A stretch of 64,000 nucleotides of DNA, taken from positions 2,143,501-2,207,500 of the forward strand of contig NZ_AP019365.1 of NCBI RefSeq assembly GCF_033095865.1, in the 5' to 3' direction. Below are positions 34,341-41,206 of this stretch, in pieces. The first letter of the stretch is position 1. Each line of letters starts with the position of its first letter. Source of the stretch: Pseudomonas sp. KU43P (GTDB taxonomy: Bacteria > Pseudomonadota > Gammaproteobacteria > Pseudomonadales > Pseudomonadaceae). The position numbers and the translations under genes are program-made. The notes under the pieces are model-generated. The model did no database searches, was not told where the DNA came from, and saw only the letters and a program-made list of their open reading frames with translations.

Positions 34341-34368
34341 TTGACAGGGGTTTTGGATTGCGTAGAAT
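34341..34368 (+). promoter_or_regulatory. Sigma-70 promoter of tRNA-Val copy 1
   Basis: TTGACA (34341-34346), 16-base spacer, TAGAAT (34363-34368). The element inserted downstream leaves this promoter and the tRNA whole. Confidence 0.85.
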
Positions 34369-34383
34369 GCGCACCACACGACA

Positions 34384-34459
34384 GGCACATAGCTCAGTTG
34401 GTTAGAGCACCACCTTGACATGGTGGGGGTCGTTGGTTCGAGTCCAATTGTGCCTACCA
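34384..34459 (+). tRNA. tRNA-Val (GAC), copy 1
   Basis: 76 bases with encoded CCA. The cloverleaf is clear: acceptor GGCACAT/TTGTGCC region, D arm GCTC...GAGC, anticodon stem CCACC/GGTGG with GAC at 34417-34419, and TTCGAGT loop. Its 3' part from TTGACA on is the attachment core of the element; copy 2 at 41131 is identical. Confidence 0.97.
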
Positions 34460-34463
34460 AATC
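34415..34463 (+). repeat. attL: 49-bp direct repeat in the tRNA-Val 3' half
   Basis: From TTGACATGG to CCAAATC, identical to 40925-40973. It begins within the anticodon loop and ends 4 bases past CCA, the common core type for tyrosine integrases. Confidence 0.92.
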
Positions 34464-34514
34464 GCCCGTAGAAGATACGGGGCTTAGAGGGGAATCCGAG
34501 AGGGTTCCTCTTTT
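34464..34514 (+). terminator. Element-supplied transcript end for tRNA-Val copy 1
   Basis: Two hairpins follow attL: GCCCGTA/TACGGGGC (34464-34483) and AGAGGGGAA/TTCCTCT (34486-34510), the latter ending in TTTT. This replaces the chromosomal terminator displaced to 40976-41007. Confidence 0.65.
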
Positions 34515-34531
34515 CGTTTTCCCTGAGAAAA

Positions 34532-34663
34532 CGTTCACAATCTATAGCCTTCGTTCACATCCTGCAATGTGCACCTGCTTTCCTGCTCTGTAGGCATTCA
34601 CACCTGATTTGTGTGAATGGGAAGGCAAGGCTAACCCCTCATTCACAGCAAAAATTGTGAACG
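34532..34663. repeat. TTCACA-motif cluster with perfect hairpin near attL
   Basis: CGTTCACA occurs at 34532 and 34552, ATTCACA at 34596 and 34641, and the inverted TGTGAA at 34613 and 34656. CATTCACAC (34595-34603) pairs perfectly with GTGTGAATG (34611-34619). No ORF is evident. Possible arm-type integrase sites, excisionase sites or iterons. Confidence 0.5.
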
Positions 34664-34709
34664 AACACTCTCAAGCCATTGATCCTAAAGGGCAAACCTC
34701 TACCTAGTG

Positions 34710-34772
34710 AAGGTGGTGCTCATTGGTCGTGGCCTCCCAATGGCGTGCGTCTAACCATCTGAGCTATGTGCC
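34710..34772 (-). repeat. Inverted relic of a tRNA-Val 5' half with a 28-base insertion
   Basis: Read on the minus strand from 34772, the sequence matches tRNA-Val from its first base for 23 bases with one mismatch (GGCACATAGCTCAG-A-TGGTTAGA). After about 28 unrelated bases it resumes with GAGCACCACCTT, ending at the position where the att core would begin. It cannot fold as a functional tRNA. It is the complementary part of the gene to that in attL and attR. Confidence 0.6.
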
Positions 34773-35100
34773 AGTCAGGTGCTCTAGCTGCTCGCATACG
34801 ATGCGTATTGATGAACGCCATAGGCGAGTGCAAGGAACGCTGAAGCGAGACGCCATACCAGTCTGTGTACGCTTGCGGGGTGATCCTAGGCATGGCTGTC
34901 TGAGAATCTTGGGCTTGACGCCAGTGGGGTAGAGAGGGGGTGTAGGGGAGGCTTCCTATGTCTGCAATGCCGCTCAGGATTTTCTAGGAGAAATGGCTGG
35001 CCTTCTGGTATCAAGGGGCGGCATATCATGGGGGGCGCTGTATCTACATCGGCGCTTGTGTAGACAGTTTTGCATCTGTAGGCATAGAGATTTGGCAGAA
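34773..35100. other. Non-coding stretch upstream of the membrane-protein gene
   Basis: No convincing gene. A weak promoter, TAGACA-16-CATAGA, lies near 35060-35090. An in-frame ATG at 34993 with AGGAGA directly before it could extend the next gene by 36 codons, but the SD spacing is too short and the added residues are basic and Cys-rich. Confidence 0.4.
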
Positions 35101-35679
35101 ATGGATTCTGGACTGGTTAACGCTGTAGTTCCGGTGGTGATCACTCTCCTTGGCACTATGACCATTGGTCTTGTGGGTGGGTGGTTTAAGTTCTACTTAG
35201 AAAGAAGGAGTGTGAGATTTGCTATCTATGCTGAGATTCAGGCTCTGGTGCTCATAATTCGTAAGCGTGAATATCTAGAAGGAATGATAGAGACTATAAA
35301 AGAGTTTGAAGAGGGGAAGTATAAGAAGGGAACTTGTGTAATTTATTCGGCATCAATCGACCCTAGTTACTGTCGAGTGTATTCTGCTTTGGTTTCAACG
35401 CTTGGTAGTCTACCTGCTGATGCTGCGCAATTGGTCGTCATCTTCTATCAGCTAATAGATAGCGTGGTTAGGGATTTGAGTCCAGGTGGGCAGCTACATG
35501 AAGGGACGGATGATGTGACTGTCTTCAATGAGGCTTCTGACCTTTTGTCTAAAGCTTTGAGGGTGGCTGAGGAGCTGCAGCGAATTGAGCATGGTGGCCT
35601 TTGGTTGCAAGTTAAAAGGTTGCTGAGGCTTGAATCGAGGGATTCATTAATCCACTCTTTGAGAAATGGCAGTGCTTGA
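35101..35679 (+). CDS. Membrane-anchored protein of unknown function (element cargo)
   Basis: 192 residues from ATG 35101. The N-terminus has one transmembrane helix (VNAVVPVVITLLGTMTIGLV, about residues 5-25) followed by a cytosolic helical domain (LERRSVRFAIYAEIQALVLI, then REYLEGMIETIKEFEEGKY and LPADAAQLVVIFYQLIDSVV). No catalytic motif seen and no family recognised. It is the only + strand gene of the element and stands beyond the minus-strand operon, a typical place for accessory cargo such as exclusion or phage defence. That role is a guess. Confidence 0.65.
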   Translation: MDSGLVNAVVPVVITLLGTMTIGLVGGWFKFYLERRSVRFAIYAEIQALVLIIRKREYLEGMIETIKEFEEGKYKKGTCVIYSASIDPSYCRVYSALVSTLGSLPADAAQLVVIFYQLIDSVVRDLSPGGQLHEGTDDVTVFNEASDLLSKALRVAEELQRIEHGGLWLQVKRLLRLESRDSLIHSLRNGSA

Positions 35680-35681
35680 TC

Positions 35682-35711
35682 TTGTGTTGTTGTGTTGATT
35701 TGAGGTATATT
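35682..35711 (+). promoter_or_regulatory. Promoter candidate for the structured RNA
   Basis: TTGTGT (35682-35687), 18-base spacer, TATATT (35706-35711). It begins three bases past the stop of the membrane-protein gene and points into the hairpin-rich stretch. Confidence 0.5.
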
Positions 35712-35717
35712 ACGCGG

Positions 35718-36080
35718 TAAAGGGAAACGGCCCTGCTTATCTGAAAGGTAAGCTACTGTAAGCGCAGAGAGTGTGCTGGCTGTGGTAAGTAGGTTAGGAA
35801 GCGAAGCCTTAGATGGCGTAGTGACTGACAGAACGCTTCAGTTACATAGCGGGGATGGTTGGTAGAACCCGCCCGTTGTATGCCGACGAATAGGCATAAG
35901 CCATATCCAAGCAAGGGCTGAGTACGCTTGGACGGGAACCACTACCGAATAGTTGGGCAATGTCGGGCGACGCCCCCATTGAAGAACGGCCTAGCAGGTA
36001 ACTGTTAGTGCACCCTAAAAGGGCAGTTAGAGAAATCTAACGCATTGTGTCAGAAGTGGTTACGCCTTCTGAAAGTCAAT
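35718..36080 (+). ncRNA. Candidate structured RNA, no known family recognised
   Basis: About 360 bases with no ORF, between two convergent genes. Perfect helices: GCTTATC/GGTAAGC with a TGAAA loop (35735-35753); a three-way junction closed by GGTAG/CTACC (35861-35865, 35942-35946) and CCCG/CGGG (35872-35875, 35933-35936), with hairpins TATGCC/GGCATA (35879-35898) and CCAAGC/GCTTGG (35907-35931); CAATG-GGGC/GCCC-CATTG (35958-35981); GTTAGA-GAAA-TCTAAC (36026-36041); TCAGAAG/CTTCTGA (36050-36072). The GAAA tetraloop and the promoter favour the + strand. It lacks the marks of RNase P, tmRNA, or group I and II introns that I can recall. Confidence 0.6.
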
Positions 36081-36111
36081 CCATGCCCTTTGTCTTAATA
36101 AATAATTCCTG

Positions 36112-36474
36112 CTAATTTACCGCCTTCAATGGTTTGACTTGGTTAAGTCTGTCAATGTCTTTCTGGTAGTCAGCAGCAATCCTTGCTTCTATCGCAATGT
36201 GTCTATCGACTTCAGCTTTAGGTGGTCTACCTACTGGACGAGTAATGCCTACCGCTTTAAGAAGCTCCTTAACCGCAGAGTAGTTATGCTCCTCGGTTCC
36301 TTTCTTCAATACTTCAATGGCTACATCTTGCCAGTAAAGTTTGTGTTCAATATCCCAAGCGTTATCTTTGGCATGACTGTCTAGCGTAATAAGACTAACT
36401 CCCCACTCCTTCGCTAGAAGGCTATGGGAGTAAGCTTCAATGTATTTCTGTTTTCCATCTTCTGGTATGTTCAT
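36112..36474 (-). CDS. Small phage-type protein with HTH-like N-terminus, terminase-small-subunit-like
   Basis: 120 residues. The N-terminal part YIEAYSHSLLAKEWGVSLIT followed by LDSHAKDNAW looks like a helix-turn-helix (LAKEWGVSLITLDSHA). KELLKAVGITRPVGRPPKAE then introduces a basic GRPPK hook and a charged helix. This pattern reminds me of phage small terminase or packaging-associated proteins, which satellites use to redirect packaging, but I cannot confirm it. The long leader upstream (36475-37010) separates it from the helicase. Confidence 0.55.
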   Translation of the reverse strand: MNIPEDGKQKYIEAYSHSLLAKEWGVSLITLDSHAKDNAWDIEHKLYWQDVAIEVLKKGTEEHNYSAVKELLKAVGITRPVGRPPKAEVDRHIAIEARIAADYQKDIDRLNQVKPLKAVN

Positions 36475-37010
36475 TTTCTATTCTCTTGTTTGGTAGTAGT
36501 AAGTGGTGCCTCAAGCCGGCAGGGGCTTTGCTCCGCAAGGGTAAAGCGAGAGCACGTCAGCAAGCTGACACGCCCTACCGGGCTGACGCATGAAAAGAGA
36601 AGAGCGTTAACTACTCGCTATGGTTAGGTGTGCCGACGTATCGTCGGTTTCCTCCTAACGTTAAATCCTTCTTTTCGAGCGTTCAGAAATTAGTGCGAGT
36701 AATGATGTGTGAGTGTAACGAACGTTAAGGACGTTCACTGGCATACGCTCTTCCATCACCCTATAAGTATCACCTTGGTATTGGCTACCTATAGGGCTAA
36801 GCAATCTCCTAGCTAAGCAGTGAACTCTAGATGGTTGTCTACTGTTAAGGGCTTAGCGTATTGGTAGCAATGGTTGATCCTGGTAGATCAACAATCTCCA
36901 AGGAGCGATAGAGTATGTGTAGTTTCTTACGATACTCTATGGTGGATTTCCCAAAAATCCTTAAGGAATCCTTAAGAGAAATTGGAAAAAATGTGGTGAC
37001 GCAGGAAATT
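36475..37010. other. Hairpin-rich non-coding region 2 of the element
   Basis: 536 bases without a credible gene. Perfect pairings: GTTCACT/AGTGAAC (36733-36739, 36819-36825) enclosing CCCTATA/TATAGGG (36759-36765, 36790-36796); GTTGATC/GATCAAC (36873-36892); ATAGAGTAT/ATACTCTAT (36908-36916, 36932-36940); CTTAAGGA-A-TCCTTAAG (36960-36976). GCTAAGC occurs twice near 36796-36816 and inverted once near 36851. It is either a second structured RNA or leader (minus-strand, feeding the 120-residue gene) or a replication origin next to the helicase gene. Confidence 0.5.
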
Positions 37011-38465
37011 TTAAGCTGCTCGTTTTAGTCCAGCGGTCCAATTGAGAATTGATTTGTAAGTTACTCCGAGGTTGTCAGCAATAACCTTTCGATCAAGTCC
37101 TTTCTCAAGAAACAGTGAGACTGCCTCAGCTTGAAGCATCGCCTTAGCTTTCTTCTTCTCAGACTTCTCTTTCTCCCAAGGTGTCATGCAAAGCTCAGTA
37201 TTGATAGAGGCTAGACGACCAAGTTTAGATTGAAGATACTTAGCCATCTCGATGTTCTGTACGAATAGAACCACTGGTGCTGTATTGTCTCTATCGCGTA
37301 GTGAAGTGCGCGCTACAGCTTGTAGCGTTGATTCATAGAGTCGCTCGAACTCAATAGCTTTCCTGATTTCAGGAACTGGTACACCTAGCATCTCGCTAAG
37401 ACTATGGAAGCTTAATGCGTCGTCAGGGCTAACGTTTCCATGCTGTAGGCAAATGGCAATGCTTCTATCTTGGTAGCCATTAATGCCTCGACTATCAATA
37501 GGGAGCTTTGTTACATTGTCTGCAAAGCTATACTCAACCCAGTCGTGCATGAAAGCTAAACTCTCATCGTCTCCAATCATTGCGGTTACACCGTCAAGCC
37601 AAGAAGCCAACTGTGTGTCATTGTTCCATTTGATTACAGATTCGCCATTGCGTTGCATCAGGCTTTGAGTCTTGGAGTATTTACCTTTCAAGAAAGGGTG
37701 AAGCTCAACACGCTTACCGTAACCATCAAAGTCAGGAGTGAATATTGAGCGTTCAAAACTCCATCCTTGACTCTCAGCGTGTACGCCTAGGAGCGTATCC
37801 CTCACATTGTTAGCCAGGATGTGTACAGTGTTTGCGTAGGTGAAAGCGGGGAGGAAATCCCTGTAACGCACAATCCGTACTAGGCGTTTACCCTTAGTGC
37901 TTTGCTTCTCTACCTCAACGCTACATTTGGGGGTGATCATAGCCTTGAGCACTTCAATTGCGGAGCTACTGAGTGCGCTGCCATCTTTGGTTTTGATCAT
38001 GGATTCTACAAGGGCTACGTGCTCAGGGTTGAGCGTTGCTTTCTTGTCATCACTTACGGTTAGATAGTGGCCAATGCTACTCAGGTAGCTAATGCTATCG
38101 AACTGGTGAGACCAGCAATCAGAGACGCTAGGCACTTCATCCATAACCAAATCCCATCCCGCCAGCAACCTTGCATCCACTTGCCTTAGGGCCTCATGTG
38201 TAACCATAAGCAGGGGTGAGTTAGCCATTGCTAATGCTTTCTCAATGGTGGCAGCTACATGACTGGTCGTTTCAGAAGTAATGATGACAGGGATAATGCC
38301 GGTAGTGGTTTTAATGGTAAGTGCTAGCTCTTTGATAAGCTCCTTGGTAGGCATTGCGTAAATCAGTTTTGAGCTAGAGATTAGTGTAGGTAGTGCTTCA
38401 ATGAATTTGGTAGATTTGCCACTGCCGGGCAATGCTTCCGCTACATAAATGGTTTTAGTGGTCAT
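37011..38465 (-). CDS. Superfamily 2 (DEAD/DEAH-type) helicase of the element
   Basis: 484 residues from ATG 38465 (AAGGACGC upstream); an earlier start at 38495 has no SD. Motif I is EALPGSGKST (about residues 9-19), motif II VMDEVPS (about 105), motif III region FVQNIEMAKYL, and motif VI QAVARTSLRDRD with the arginine finger. The C-terminal 40 residues form an HTH (EKGLDRKVIADNLGVTYKSILNWTAG), so it may bind a specific site, perhaps in the adjacent hairpin region. Likely used for replication or transfer of the element. No primase domain seen. Confidence 0.75.
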   Translation of the reverse strand: MTTKTIYVAEALPGSGKSTKFIEALPTLISSSKLIYAMPTKELIKELALTIKTTTGIIPVIITSETTSHVAATIEKALAMANSPLLMVTHEALRQVDARLLAGWDLVMDEVPSVSDCWSHQFDSISYLSSIGHYLTVSDDKKATLNPEHVALVESMIKTKDGSALSSSAIEVLKAMITPKCSVEVEKQSTKGKRLVRIVRYRDFLPAFTYANTVHILANNVRDTLLGVHAESQGWSFERSIFTPDFDGYGKRVELHPFLKGKYSKTQSLMQRNGESVIKWNNDTQLASWLDGVTAMIGDDESLAFMHDWVEYSFADNVTKLPIDSRGINGYQDRSIAICLQHGNVSPDDALSFHSLSEMLGVPVPEIRKAIEFERLYESTLQAVARTSLRDRDNTAPVVLFVQNIEMAKYLQSKLGRLASINTELCMTPWEKEKSEKKKAKAMLQAEAVSLFLEKGLDRKVIADNLGVTYKSILNWTAGLKRAA

Positions 38466-38659
38466 GCGTCCTTGTTCTTTAATGAGCTTCTGCAAGCTCC
38501 TATAAGCGTGTATGAGAGGCGTAGAGCGTCACCCTGTGGGTTGCTTAGGGTTAGCCTATAACAGCTTGCAGAATGGAGATTAGAAGGGTTGCTACAGAGA
38601 TTAGAAAGGCTGTGACACTAGCAAGGCAGAGAATGGATATTGCCCAGCGACGGAGTAAA

Positions 38660-38962
38660 TTACTTATCGGTCTTCACCTTTGCTTTAACTGGTGCTCTGT
38701 CAGCTTCTAGCTTGTCAATGATGGAGTGTAGAGTCTGTGTGGATGTGAACGCACTATCAAGCTTGCTAGAGGTAGGAAGGTCAATACACACATAATTGCC
38801 ACGCTGATTCATTTGGTAACGCACACCTTTGTATTCCTTTACCTCTCCGACTAGCAGTGAGTTTTTAATAAGGATATCGGCTGCTTTCTGTTGGGTTTGC
38901 GCTTTACGCTCAGCAAGGTACTGTGCTTCAGCGTCTGAGTAGTAGGCTTCTCGAAGGCTCAT
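38660..38962 (-). CDS. Hypothetical protein of the element
   Basis: 100 residues, charged and soluble: SLREAYYSDAEAQYLAERKA, a Gln/Ala helix, a beta-rich middle (GEVKEYKGVRYQMNQRGNYV) and a Lys-rich tail. The ATG overlaps the previous gene's stop (ATGA at 38959-38962). No family recognised. Directly after its stop, another frame encodes a hydrophobic stretch of about 30 residues with no start codon (see findings). Confidence 0.65.
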   Translation of the reverse strand: MSLREAYYSDAEAQYLAERKAQTQQKAADILIKNSLLVGEVKEYKGVRYQMNQRGNYVCIDLPTSSKLDSAFTSTQTLHSIIDKLEADRAPVKAKVKTDK

Positions 38963-39405
38963 TCTGTTACCCCGTATTGCTTGTAAATGTTCTTCTTGAT
39001 TTCTTTCATGAGTGCTGTCTGATTCTTAACGGTAGCGCTGGTTCCCGACACTACAGATTGCTTGATGCCAAGGAGGTTGCCTTGCTCATCGTAACTGAAA
39101 TTGTTCTGCTCCACTTTCTTACCCTTGCTGGCTTCAATGGCAAGCTGAGCATCAATGCCTTCTCGGATTCCTGGATCAGACTTGTAGAGGCGTGCAATTG
39201 TCTCTTGTCTCAGTTGCCGCATAAGCGTAACTGCCTCAGCAGGATTACCCATTACACTAGCTCGTTGATTAGATGGCGCTTGAGTAGGTGTACCATCGGT
39301 AATCTCCCAGCCTTCTTTTGCTGCAATGTCTAGAATCTCAGCAGGAGAGCGGCCAGTGGATTTGGAGAGTTCAAAAATGTCATGGGGGTTAAGAGTCTTG
39401 GTCAT
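38959..39405 (-). CDS. Hypothetical protein of the element
   Basis: 148 residues. The N-terminus (LNPHDIFELSKSTGRSPAEILDIAAKEGW) is a compact helical motif, followed by a Gln/Arg-rich helix (AVTLMRQLRQETIARLYKSD) and a C-terminal KKNIYKQYGVTE. No known domain. It lies in the minus-strand operon wHTH-this-100 aa-helicase, so it is probably a replication or regulation accessory. Confidence 0.65.
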   Translation of the reverse strand: MTKTLNPHDIFELSKSTGRSPAEILDIAAKEGWEITDGTPTQAPSNQRASVMGNPAEAVTLMRQLRQETIARLYKSDPGIREGIDAQLAIEASKGKKVEQNNFSYDEQGNLLGIKQSVVSGTSATVKNQTALMKEIKKNIYKQYGVTE

Positions 39406-39416
39406 GATAGGGTTCC

Positions 39417-39683
39417 TTACAGTTCGATAATTCGATATTCATTAGTGGAGTTGGGGTGTTCTTTGCTTGGGTTTTGCTCGATGAGTCCAACTTTGATAAG
39501 TCGGTTGAGTGTTCGTGCTACTGAATTACTAGACATGCCTGTTGCGCTCTCGAAAGCGGCAAGGCTAATGGCTGACCATCCGTCCTCCTTTTTCTCATTT
39601 CTAATAATGAGGTAGATCAATTTGGAGGATAGGGTATTAAGTTGTTTGTGCTGAATTTTTGCAATGTCTTCAATGGTTATCAT
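39417..39683 (-). CDS. Winged-helix DNA-binding protein of the element
   Basis: 88 residues. The helix-turn-helix is WSAISLAAFESATGMSSNSVARTLNRLIKVGLI, followed by a beta wing (EQNPSKEHPNSTNEYRIIEL). It opens the minus-strand operon, 12 bases before the next gene, and is preceded by an AT-rich promoter region (39700-39830). It probably represses its own operon or helps start replication. Family placement beyond winged helix is not possible by eye. Confidence 0.7.
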   Translation of the reverse strand: MITIEDIAKIQHKQLNTLSSKLIYLIIRNEKKEDGWSAISLAAFESATGMSSNSVARTLNRLIKVGLIEQNPSKEHPNSTNEYRIIEL

Positions 39684-39840
39684 GTTCTATGCTTTCCTTT
39701 AGGGTTTGTATTTTTTAGTTGTAATTCCTGATCGTGCTTACTGCATAACTCTCTCCCTCTCAAAATTCTATGTCTATACTAAATATACTGGTAGGGGTGA
39801 GAAACGTATACAAAAGAGGGGGTGTATTTGTTGGGATTGG

Positions 39841-39876
39841 AAAAAGGCCCTAGATTGATTCTCCTAAGGCCTTGGG
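39841..39876 (-). terminator. Terminator of the integrase gene
   Basis: On the minus strand AAGGCCTTAG pairs with CTAGGGCCTT over a 10-base loop and is followed by a T run. It lies about 17 bases past the integrase stop. Confidence 0.75.
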
Positions 39877-39892
39877 GTTGCTAACGGTGTGC

Positions 39893-40849
39893 TCAGTCTA
39901 TGAGGTGTAGGACGTCTTTAGCGTTGAGGTGTGAGTACCTAGCAACGGACCTTGTATCCCTATGCCCGGATACAATCATTATTTGAGCGTTATTGAATCC
40001 CTTCTTAGCTACGTTAGTGATGCGTGTGTGTCTTAACTGATGTAGCTTCACTGACTTATCAAGGCCTGCTCTGTTTCTCGCCTTCCTGACAGCCTGTGAG
40101 ACGCTGTGAGGGCGTACAGTGAACAATCTACCCTTGGGTATACGCTCCGCATGAGCCAAGCATATGGCCTTCTTCAGAAGCTCTATGGCTCGTTTGGTGA
40201 GAGGTACAGACCTAGTGCCGTTCTTACCATCCACTACATCTGCAATGCGTTGTTCTAGGTGCAAGCAATTGACTGTTAGCTTGAGTATCTCGGAGCGTCT
40301 CATTGCCGTTTCATAGGCTAGCTCCGCTATGAGCGCCATGGTGGGTGTTAACTCTTTCAGCATCAGGTTCAGTTCATACGCACTGACTACCTTGTCGCTA
40401 GGCTTCGATGGCTTAGGAAGCGACACCTCAGTAACAGGGTTGGCAATGTTGATTAGGAGTTCACGCTTCGCATACTTGAAGAACCTAGACATGAACGCTA
40501 GCTGAGTCCTACAGGTGGCTGGCTTCACAGATTCCAGGCGCTTCAATTTGAAGTCGTTCACATCCTTAGGGGTGATTTGCTTGATGGGTTGTGGGAAGGC
40601 GTGAGCTAGCTGCTCAACGATTTGGATGGCATGGGCATAGCTACCCTTGCCCTTGAGAAGGGATTCACAGTAGGACATGCCTAGCGTGTAGATGGTGTGC
40701 TCTCGGTGTTGCTTGGTGACAGCCTCAAGCTTGCCAGCCCATGCTTGAGCTTCTTCCTGAGTCTTGAAGGTCTTGGACTGAGGGGGCTTACCCTTGAGTC
40801 TGACTTGAGCGTTCCAGTTACCAGATGGGAGGGAGCGAATGGTTGCCAT
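39893..40849 (-). CDS. Tyrosine recombinase (integrase) of the element
   Basis: 318 residues. The catalytic set can be placed: Arg184 (ETAMRRSEIL), His270-x-x-Arg273 (LHQLRHTRI), His296 (VSGHRDTRS) and Tyr305 (VARYSH). The N-terminal part has an arm-binding region (TIRSLPSGNWNAQVRLKGKPP) and a SAM-like core-binding domain. The gene starts 76 bases from attR, the expected arrangement for a tRNA-targeting integrase. The frame is intact, so the element may still excise. Confidence 0.93.
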   Translation of the reverse strand: MATIRSLPSGNWNAQVRLKGKPPQSKTFKTQEEAQAWAGKLEAVTKQHREHTIYTLGMSYCESLLKGKGSYAHAIQIVEQLAHAFPQPIKQITPKDVNDFKLKRLESVKPATCRTQLAFMSRFFKYAKRELLINIANPVTEVSLPKPSKPSDKVVSAYELNLMLKELTPTMALIAELAYETAMRRSEILKLTVNCLHLEQRIADVVDGKNGTRSVPLTKRAIELLKKAICLAHAERIPKGRLFTVRPHSVSQAVRKARNRAGLDKSVKLHQLRHTRITNVAKKGFNNAQIMIVSGHRDTRSVARYSHLNAKDVLHLID

Positions 40850-40924
40850 GATGACGCCTCAAATGTGAATGGGCGTTCTCTCAAGGGCTTGATCTAGAAG
40901 GGGCGGGCCTTCGGGTTCCTCTTG

Positions 40925-40973
40925 TTGACATGGTGGGGGTCGTTGGTTCGAGTCCAATTGTGCCTACCAAATC
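40925..40973 (+). repeat. attR: 49-bp direct repeat, tRNA-Val 3' fragment
   Basis: Identical to 34415-34463. Upstream bases (CTCTTG) do not match the tRNA, so this is a 3' fragment only. Confidence 0.92.
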
Positions 40974-40975
40974 CC

Positions 40976-41007
40976 AGAAAGGGCGATCCGAAAGGTTCGC
41001 CCTTTCT
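40976..41007 (+). terminator. Original terminator of tRNA-Val copy 1, displaced by the element
   Basis: AGAAAGGGCGA (40976-40986) pairs perfectly with TCGCCCTTTCT (40997-41007). A related hairpin follows tRNA-Val copy 2. Confidence 0.75.
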
Positions 41008-41086
41008 GCATTTCGGGGCTGTATCCGGCCGTTTGTAAAGCGGCTGCCCGGGTTCTGAAAGTTTTTGATTTTTTTGAAAAAAACGC

Positions 41087-41115
41087 TTTACAGGTGTGCA
41101 TCTGATCACTAATAT
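41087..41115 (+). promoter_or_regulatory. Sigma-70 promoter of tRNA-Val copy 2
   Basis: TTTACA (41087-41092), 17-base spacer, TAATAT (41110-41115). The following leader GCGCACCACACGACA is identical in both tRNA copies. Confidence 0.85.
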
Positions 41116-41130
41116 GCGCACCACACGACA

Positions 41131-41206
41131 GGCACATAGCTCAGTTGGTTAGAGCACCACCTTGACATGGTGGGGGTCGTTGGTTCGAGTCCAATTGTGC
41201 CTACCA
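41131..41206 (+). tRNA. tRNA-Val (GAC), copy 2
   Basis: Identical to 34384-34459, with CCA encoded; anticodon GAC at 41164-41166. It was the second of a tandem pair before insertion of the element. A GGCGA/TCGCC hairpin with six T follows at about 41219-41245. Confidence 0.97.

Follow-up and report, generated by a model that had tools for sequence, protein, structure and literature searches.

The 64,000-nucleotide stretch of Pseudomonas sp. KU43P DNA analysed here (the window, 2.14-2.21 Mb of a 5.87 Mb single-contig chromosome) contains a compact integrated element, bounded on the left by an intact tRNA-Val(GAC) gene and on the right by a 45-base copy of the 3' half of that tRNA (Table 1). 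The right-hand fragment at 40925-40969, of which a comparable version is found in 9 of 9 relatives examined, puts the length of the element at about 6.5 kb. A 97-bp stretch around the second tRNA-Val(GAC), further to the right, repeats positions 34367-34463; the same fragment, like those of the nine relatives, rules out this longer repeat with its two intact tRNAs as the attachment repeat. The G+C content of 34460-41129 is 46.9%, compared to 65.3 and 64.1% in 10 kb on either side. The tRNA-Val(GAC) gene, the 45-base repeat and a tyrosine integrase fit the original description of a mobile element at tRNA-Val.

Table 1. Features of the tRNA-Val element in the window; P1 to P13 are predicted helices of the RNA
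Feature	Positions	Strand	Basis or remark
tRNA-Val(GAC), intact; left end of element	34383..34459	+	tRNA search
Left attachment repeat	34415-34459	+	last 45 bases of left tRNA-Val(GAC)
Cargo ORF, 228 aa, variable	34993..35679	+	no family match in family searches
Candidate sigma70-like promoter, TTGTGT-18-TATATT	35682..35711	+	TTGTGT 35682, TATATT 35706; 8 of 12 consensus bases
Probable structured RNA gene	35718..36092	+	aligned conserved core 35720-36041; both ends predicted, 3' end uncertain
P1, AGGG/CCCT, loop AAACGG	35721..35734	+	AGGC/GCCT in most relatives
P2, hairpin GCTT/AAGC	35735..35753	+	
P3, hairpin AGCGCA/TGTGCT	35761..35777	+	
P5, GTTAG/CTGAC, with inner hairpin P5i GCC/GGC	35793..35829	+	
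P6, hairpin GCGGG/CCCGC	35849..35872	+	
P7, hairpin TATGCC/GGCATA	35879..35898	+	contains the sole pair significant in the all-pairs test
P8, hairpin CCAAGC/GCTTGG	35907..35931	+	
P9, hairpin CCACTA/TAGTTGG	35939..35956	+	one bulge
P10, hairpin CAATG/CATTG, with inner P10i	35958..35981	+	
P11, hairpin with GNRA tetraloop	35991..36008	+	GTAA in window; preceded by invariant GAAGAACGGC
P12, hairpin CCC/GGG	36013..36023	+	
P13, hairpin GTTAGA-GAAA-TCTAAC	36026..36041	+	
Small-terminase-like protein, 120 aa	36112..36474	-	predicted helix-turn-helix and long helices
DEAD-type helicase, 494 aa	37011..38495	-	phrog_2467; Pfam DEAD below its curated cut-off
100-aa protein	38660..38962	-	no assigned function
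148-aa protein	38959..39405	-	no assigned function
Winged-helix protein, 88 aa	39417..39683	-	resembles phage O-like replication initiators
Tyrosine integrase, 318 aa	39893..40849	-	
Right attachment repeat	40925..40969	+	45-base copy of tRNA 3' half
Second tRNA-Val(GAC), intact, beyond right end	41130..41206	+	

The make-up of the element looks like that of a phage satellite: it has an integrase and an attachment repeat, and no virion structural families are found among the 7 element ORFs scanned. Dependence on a helper phage is hypothetical. None of the element proteins matches a polymerase or a primase; an O-like protein and a helicase are present. Distant relatives of the helicase occur in 122 phage records, for the most part from phages of Aeromonas and enterobacteria, with about 24-25% identity in the matches listed. 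PADLOC, run on 9 proteins, gives a single weak hit, RT_UG32 (E 0.0067), to the terminase-like protein, which we judge to be due to chance.

The 120-aa protein is similar to an ORF in 14 Pseudomonas phage records (35-38% identity over 62% of the length, E 2e-4 to 3e-3). The matching ORF of phage TC6 immediately precedes the gene of the terminase large subunit, and in another Zobellviridae record a weaker match stands upstream of that gene; in vB_PaeM_Ty the gene that follows is annotated just as hypothetical. One homologue is itself annotated as a terminase small subunit. The predicted model of the protein (mean pLDDT 88, pTM 0.57) consists of helices and begins with a helix-turn-helix-like part; a fold search with it finds nothing at E<=0.001, and the weak matches include a phBC6A51-type homeodomain and terminase small subunit entries. 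Outside Pseudomonas, relatives of the protein with 67-69% identity are seen in Frateuria, Rhodanobacter and Luteibacter (P0051, P0056 and P0063). Protein relatives of the window's own branch are found in metagenome contigs, P. aeruginosa, Rhodanobacter and Luteibacter.

The cargo ORF and the terminase-like gene are convergent, and it is the roughly 360 bases between them that were originally proposed to lack an ORF and to encode a new structured RNA. There is indeed no ORF of at least 60 aa in 35718-36080; five of the 12 relatives do have ORFs that overlap the core, and these measure 60-102 aa, are unshared and lie on either strand. The plus strand of the same interval folds at -129.2 kcal/mol (z -3.5), with none of 100 dinucleotide shuffles as good, in agreement with the claim that helices are denser here than in random DNA; the z-score of the minus strand is -2.3, also with 0 of 100 shuffles as good. 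The GAAA-capped hairpin that had been noticed is present at 36026-36041 and is the same as conserved hairpin P13. The proposed three-way junction fared less well. Its segments exist (GGTAG at 35861, CTACC at 35942, CCCG at 35872 and CGGG at 35933), but the junction is not kept in relatives and was rejected; in the conserved fold, GGTAG belongs to the loop of P6, and CTACC shares bases with the 5' arm of P9.

The predicted promoter likewise stands in part: the motif and its 18-nt spacer are there, but with just 8 of 12 consensus bases it is below the scan threshold, and a threshold scan of 35600-36300 finds no promoter on either strand and no intrinsic terminator. Across the copies described below, the best sigma70-like match in the 60 nt upstream has at least 9 of 12 consensus bases in 10 of 13 cases; the window, L041 and L053 reach 8. 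The sites in relatives, with 8-11 of 12 bases, end 7-13 nt before the P1 arm. Among shuffled upstream regions 14% reach a score of 9 and 2% reach 10, the latter being reached by 7 of the 13 copies. The aligned core measures 305-331 nt in different copies; the region spans roughly 330 to 375 bases, and the whole transcript in the window would perhaps be 375 nt long.

With blastn, 398 genomes of the genus yield, besides the window's own copy, one weak relative (G331, 73% identity over 94 bases), which is located near tRNA-Val and near relatives of the helicase and of the 120-aa protein. A profile built from these two sequences recovers 10 copies, the window's included, from the element and the 31 loci searched. 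A covariance model of a 113-nt core (R1) finds the RNA in 11 of the 398 genomes, one copy in each, own genome included, and adds G101 to the set. All 11 genome copies adjoin tRNA-Val(GAC), and in the 10 further genomes the RNA occupies the same place in the element. Two IMG/VR contigs with the RNA were found by a DNA pattern search; ARAGORN detects no tRNA within the stretch available from them. The comparison set thus consists of 13 sequences (11 genome copies, including the window's, and two from IMG/VR), 47-98% identical. Locus L032 (G351) is the same contig as L004, from Pseudomonas sp. NFIX28; the integrase is split there into two ORFs of 144 and 174 aa (L032 11495-12453).

The helicase is found in 24 of the 398 genomes, 10 of which carry the RNA. 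In the other 14 the core model gives nothing at E<0.02; there are four weak hits with E 0.03-0.64, three of them on the helicase's contig, more than 15 kb away. One of the 14, G186, has an element at tRNA-Val(GAC) in which a promoter and the 5' hairpins are followed by a small ORF, a truncated version of the RNA. Overall, 11 of 12 tRNA-Val elements in genomes contain the core and one contains this remnant. Searches further afield give little. No relative is found in phage and plasmid records with the RNA as DNA query (E<=1e-5), and searches for viral contigs with the helicase and the terminase-like protein return none, or just the two IMG/VR contigs already known. The core model finds nothing in 25 genomes of a sister genus, and in 115 relatives just two copies that were already known; the search for the helicase in 293 genomes of the order, like that for the terminase-like protein in 185 of the class, returns just the own genome. 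Three intergenic gaps near distant relatives of the helicase (L040 6517-6757, L045 9530-10151 and L046 4058-4320) fold with z of -6 to -8 in a rough test with 20 mononucleotide shuffles, and these are possibly other structured RNAs.

Rfam 15 (4227 models), which includes models of RNase P, tmRNA, group I and II introns, GOLLD and ROOL, matches nothing in the window at the gathering score except two tRNAs. When the threshold is relaxed to E<=10, the element has just two matches, located at 40931-41080 close to the tRNA fragment on the right, and none in the RNA region. Two relatives give nothing but tRNA at the gathering score, and chance-level fragments of SNORD29, SNORD57 and mir-248 (E 0.99-3.3) at the relaxed one. 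A known Rfam RNA is therefore rejected, since no family matches the region, and the earlier statement that it matches no known large RNA holds against Rfam for the window and for both relatives. A literature search by title and the start of the abstract, outside which subscription papers mostly fell, found no paper on this element or RNA.

Comparison of the 13 copies shows a predicted fold of 14 helices (P1 to P13 without P4, and with inner helices P5i and P10i), kept on the plus strand by compensating changes. Two alignments were used. The unadjusted MAFFT alignment of the 13 copies (A6, with helices named from L035) has 85.1% of the cells paired, compared with 79.2 +- 0.6 after shuffling of the 3' letters and 34-47% with partners slid; 28 of its 70 pairs are double-changed, against 13.0 +- 2.3 in shuffles. 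Its covariation score is higher than in 500 of 500 shuffles, and its count of further pair types is reached by 5 of 500. In the hand-made structural alignment, which was built with complementarity in view, 94.9% of the cells are paired and 44 of 71 pairs are double-changed.

To allow for the relatedness of the copies, a tree-aware null was simulated 60 times per setting by redistributing the substitutions that fall on each branch of the tree. Under this null 14.5-15.1 double-change pairs (maximum 23) are expected for the hand alignment, with RNAalifold z of -16.0 and -15.2, and 11.8-12.4 (maximum 21) for the MAFFT alignment, with z of -7.7 and -8.9. With the window row removed there are 27 such pairs against 10.3 expected (z -10.6), and with the window, L053 and L068 all removed, 27 against 8.9 (z -9.3). 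An R-scape-like test of all pairs (200 simulations), which has little power on 13 sequences, leaves one pair, in P7, at E<=0.05 on the hand alignment, where 3 of the 14 pairs at E<=5 are in helices; on the MAFFT alignment all pairs stay above E 1, and of the five at E<=5 none falls in a helix. Covariation in homologous elements, which had been suggested as a check, is thus seen as an excess of double changes over shuffled and tree-aware controls, with single-pair significance for one pair.

Individual helices change while keeping complementarity: P6 is GCGGG/CCCGC in the window, as opposed to GGGAG/CTCCC and GCGAC/GTCGC elsewhere, and P5 is GTTAG/CTGAC as opposed to GGTAG/CTATC and GTTAT/GTAAC. 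The window copy satisfies 98.6% of the pairs despite being 47-55% identical to the other copies. Its minimum-energy fold contains P3, P7, P8, P10, P11, P12 and P13 and is without the other seven of the 14 helices (P1, P2, P5, P5i, P6, P9 and P10i); the free fold has -136.8 kcal/mol, versus -118.7 when forced to the consensus helices, a gap of 18 kcal/mol. By eye, a candidate long-range pairing, which would compete with P1, could join the 5' end to an AUGCCCU further downstream (in the window, AAAGGG to CCCUUU).

Invariant in all 13 sequences are 42 of 142 paired columns and 38 of 163 unpaired ones, among them GAAGAACGGC before P11. The GNRA loop of P11 is present in 13 of 13 copies and the AAACGG loop of P1 in 11 of 13. 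The invariant unpaired motifs look like parts of a tertiary fold or a protein site. The string AACGG occurs at two conserved unpaired places, in the P1 loop (35725-35730) and in GAAGAACGGC (35982-35991).

The protein genes around the RNA are conserved to a different extent. The terminase-like protein is found in 13 of 13 RNA-bearing elements, L037, L042 and L043 having an extra small ORF between the RNA and the retained gene, and a match to the integrase is seen in all relatives but the shorter contig L037 (11 of 12). The helicase has 68-73% identity in seven relatives, about 30% in four (L041-L044) and is unmatched in L068, and a sequence similar to the 228-aa cargo is seen in 2 of 12 RNA-bearing relatives. 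The helicase and the cargo thus vary, and the RNA, the terminase-like protein and the integrase are the constant parts of the element. We also considered the helicase and the RNA as an obligate pair; this was rejected, as the RNA stays in L041-L044 and L068, where the helicase is exchanged or unmatched.

Very probably, the region encodes an RNA that is elaborately folded and has not been described before, and the lack of an Rfam match, the homologous elements and the double changes all support the original candidate. On balance, we believe that it represents a new family of large structured RNA, stand-alone and trans-acting, in satellite-like elements of about 6.5 kb at Pseudomonas tRNA-Val(GAC), although we hold this with moderate confidence. 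The RNA would have its own promoter and would be made as a non-coding, stand-alone molecule. Less securely, it might act in trans in folded form, by binding a protein of the helper or host or by self-assembling during the satellite cycle, and the most likely outcome may be that some step of the helper phage is taken over or blocked, rather than plain antisense pairing. A long antisense RNA to the own element was rejected, as there is no exact antisense match of at least 12 nt in the 6 elements examined; an RsmA/CsrA sponge was rejected on account of 0-1 ANGGA motifs per copy. A bolder version is conceivable, if doubtful: a phage satellite that has a large ornate RNA as a constant part and parasitises its helper, for example at packaging, by means of an RNA machine which this RNA forms by self-assembly or together with a phage protein.

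Several other explanations compete with a stand-alone RNA that acts in trans. Control or priming of satellite replication, by an RNA II-like primer or a copy-control RNA transcribed towards the conserved A+T-rich stretch downstream, seems unlikely. The RNA sits between two transcription units, all 13 copies have AAATAATT or TAATAAAT within 54-330 nt downstream of the core, and the element combines an O-like protein and a helicase with no polymerase or primase match, all of which would suit such a role; but RNA II-like systems require an antisense RNA and the 6 elements have no 12-nt antisense match, the threshold scan sees no promoter-like site on either strand of 35600-36300, and the G186 element persists without most of the RNA. 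In the window the RNA is directly followed by A+T-rich TTAATAAATAATT (36095-36107).

Next in order, and likewise improbable, is that the region forms a long 5' leader controlling a small same-strand ORF downstream of it, in the manner of a riboswitch or a leader peptide. Such plus-strand ORFs (about 75-126 aa, hydrophobic by eye) follow the RNA or its remnant in L042, L043, L037 and G186, and likewise at L034, and in several other copies an ATG with an ORF of 8-17 codons is seen by eye at the same place. The window, however, has no plus-strand ORF of 60 aa before the convergent gene, and the RNA core is constant where the downstream ORF is not; to our knowledge, known leaders are all smaller than this RNA.

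Still less probable is that the conserved stretch works as DNA, as a packaging site, a cruciform or an origin. Packaging sites often adjoin small terminase genes, and a small-terminase-like gene does adjoin the stretch. The pairing itself argues for RNA: among the 921 pair cells over 71 pairs, 793 are Watson-Crick, 81 G-U, 7 A-C and 40 other, and the ratio of 81 G-U to 7 A-C cells indicates that pairing is kept as plus-strand RNA, not on the minus strand. A DNA cruciform or packaging site as the main reading was rejected on this asymmetry; besides, no inverted repeat of at least 12 bp is found in the three copies examined, and promoter-like sites lie upstream. Chance folding, with covariation as an artefact of alignment and relatedness, is hardly credible, for although the strictest test leaves one pair on the hand alignment and none on MAFFT, the signal stands out from tree-aware nulls both in the unadjusted MAFFT alignment and after removal of the window, and the strand asymmetry speaks against chance as well.

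A stand-alone, trans-acting RNA invites comparison with what is known of phage satellites and of large RNAs. PICIs, which carry small terminases, cfPICIs and PICMIs are, like this element, small integrated elements that exploit phage machinery; the gene set here differs, with its phrog_2467 helicase, O-like protein, tRNA-Val site and structured RNA. PICMIs are described in PMC10803314 as small and without capsid-remodelling genes, and the main text of that article is without the words helicase, terminase, noncoding and Pseudomonas. Satellites, which have been studied mainly through their proteins, would seem able to depend on a structured RNA. The CI RNA of P4 is likewise an RNA of a satellite, with a regulatory role, but it is much shorter and acts by antisense pairing, as opposed to the absence here of an antisense match of at least 12 nt in 6 elements. 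P4 RNA is mentioned as a satellite RNA in a passage of PMC7567579, which also treats the IIR of Vibrio cholerae PLE satellites, an abundant predicted non-coding RNA flanked by inverted repeats and with antisense homology to the leaders of PLE genes. The IIR is thus another predicted non-coding RNA of a phage satellite; it differs in both respects from the RNA described here, which has no inverted repeats of at least 12 bp (3 copies) and no such antisense match.

A further likeness is to GOLLD and ROOL, which are grouped with OLE as 'ornate' large RNAs. PMC12286853 introduces them as large RNAs with an elaborate fold that occur in phages and prophages, frequently close to tRNA genes, and whose function is unknown. 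One ROOL has 659 nt, and many GOLLD exceed 800 nt. The RNA at tRNA-Val(GAC) resembles both in its large elaborate fold and in its place near a tRNA gene. It differs in that both are larger, in that it has no Rfam match even at E<=10, and in its carrier, a satellite-like element of 6.5 kb. Few RNAs are as poorly understood as the large structured ones of phages, and a new one in an element of about seven protein genes has fewer possible partners and a function that can be tested by deletion. If the RNA machine reading is true, this would be the first satellite-borne counterpart of GOLLD and ROOL.
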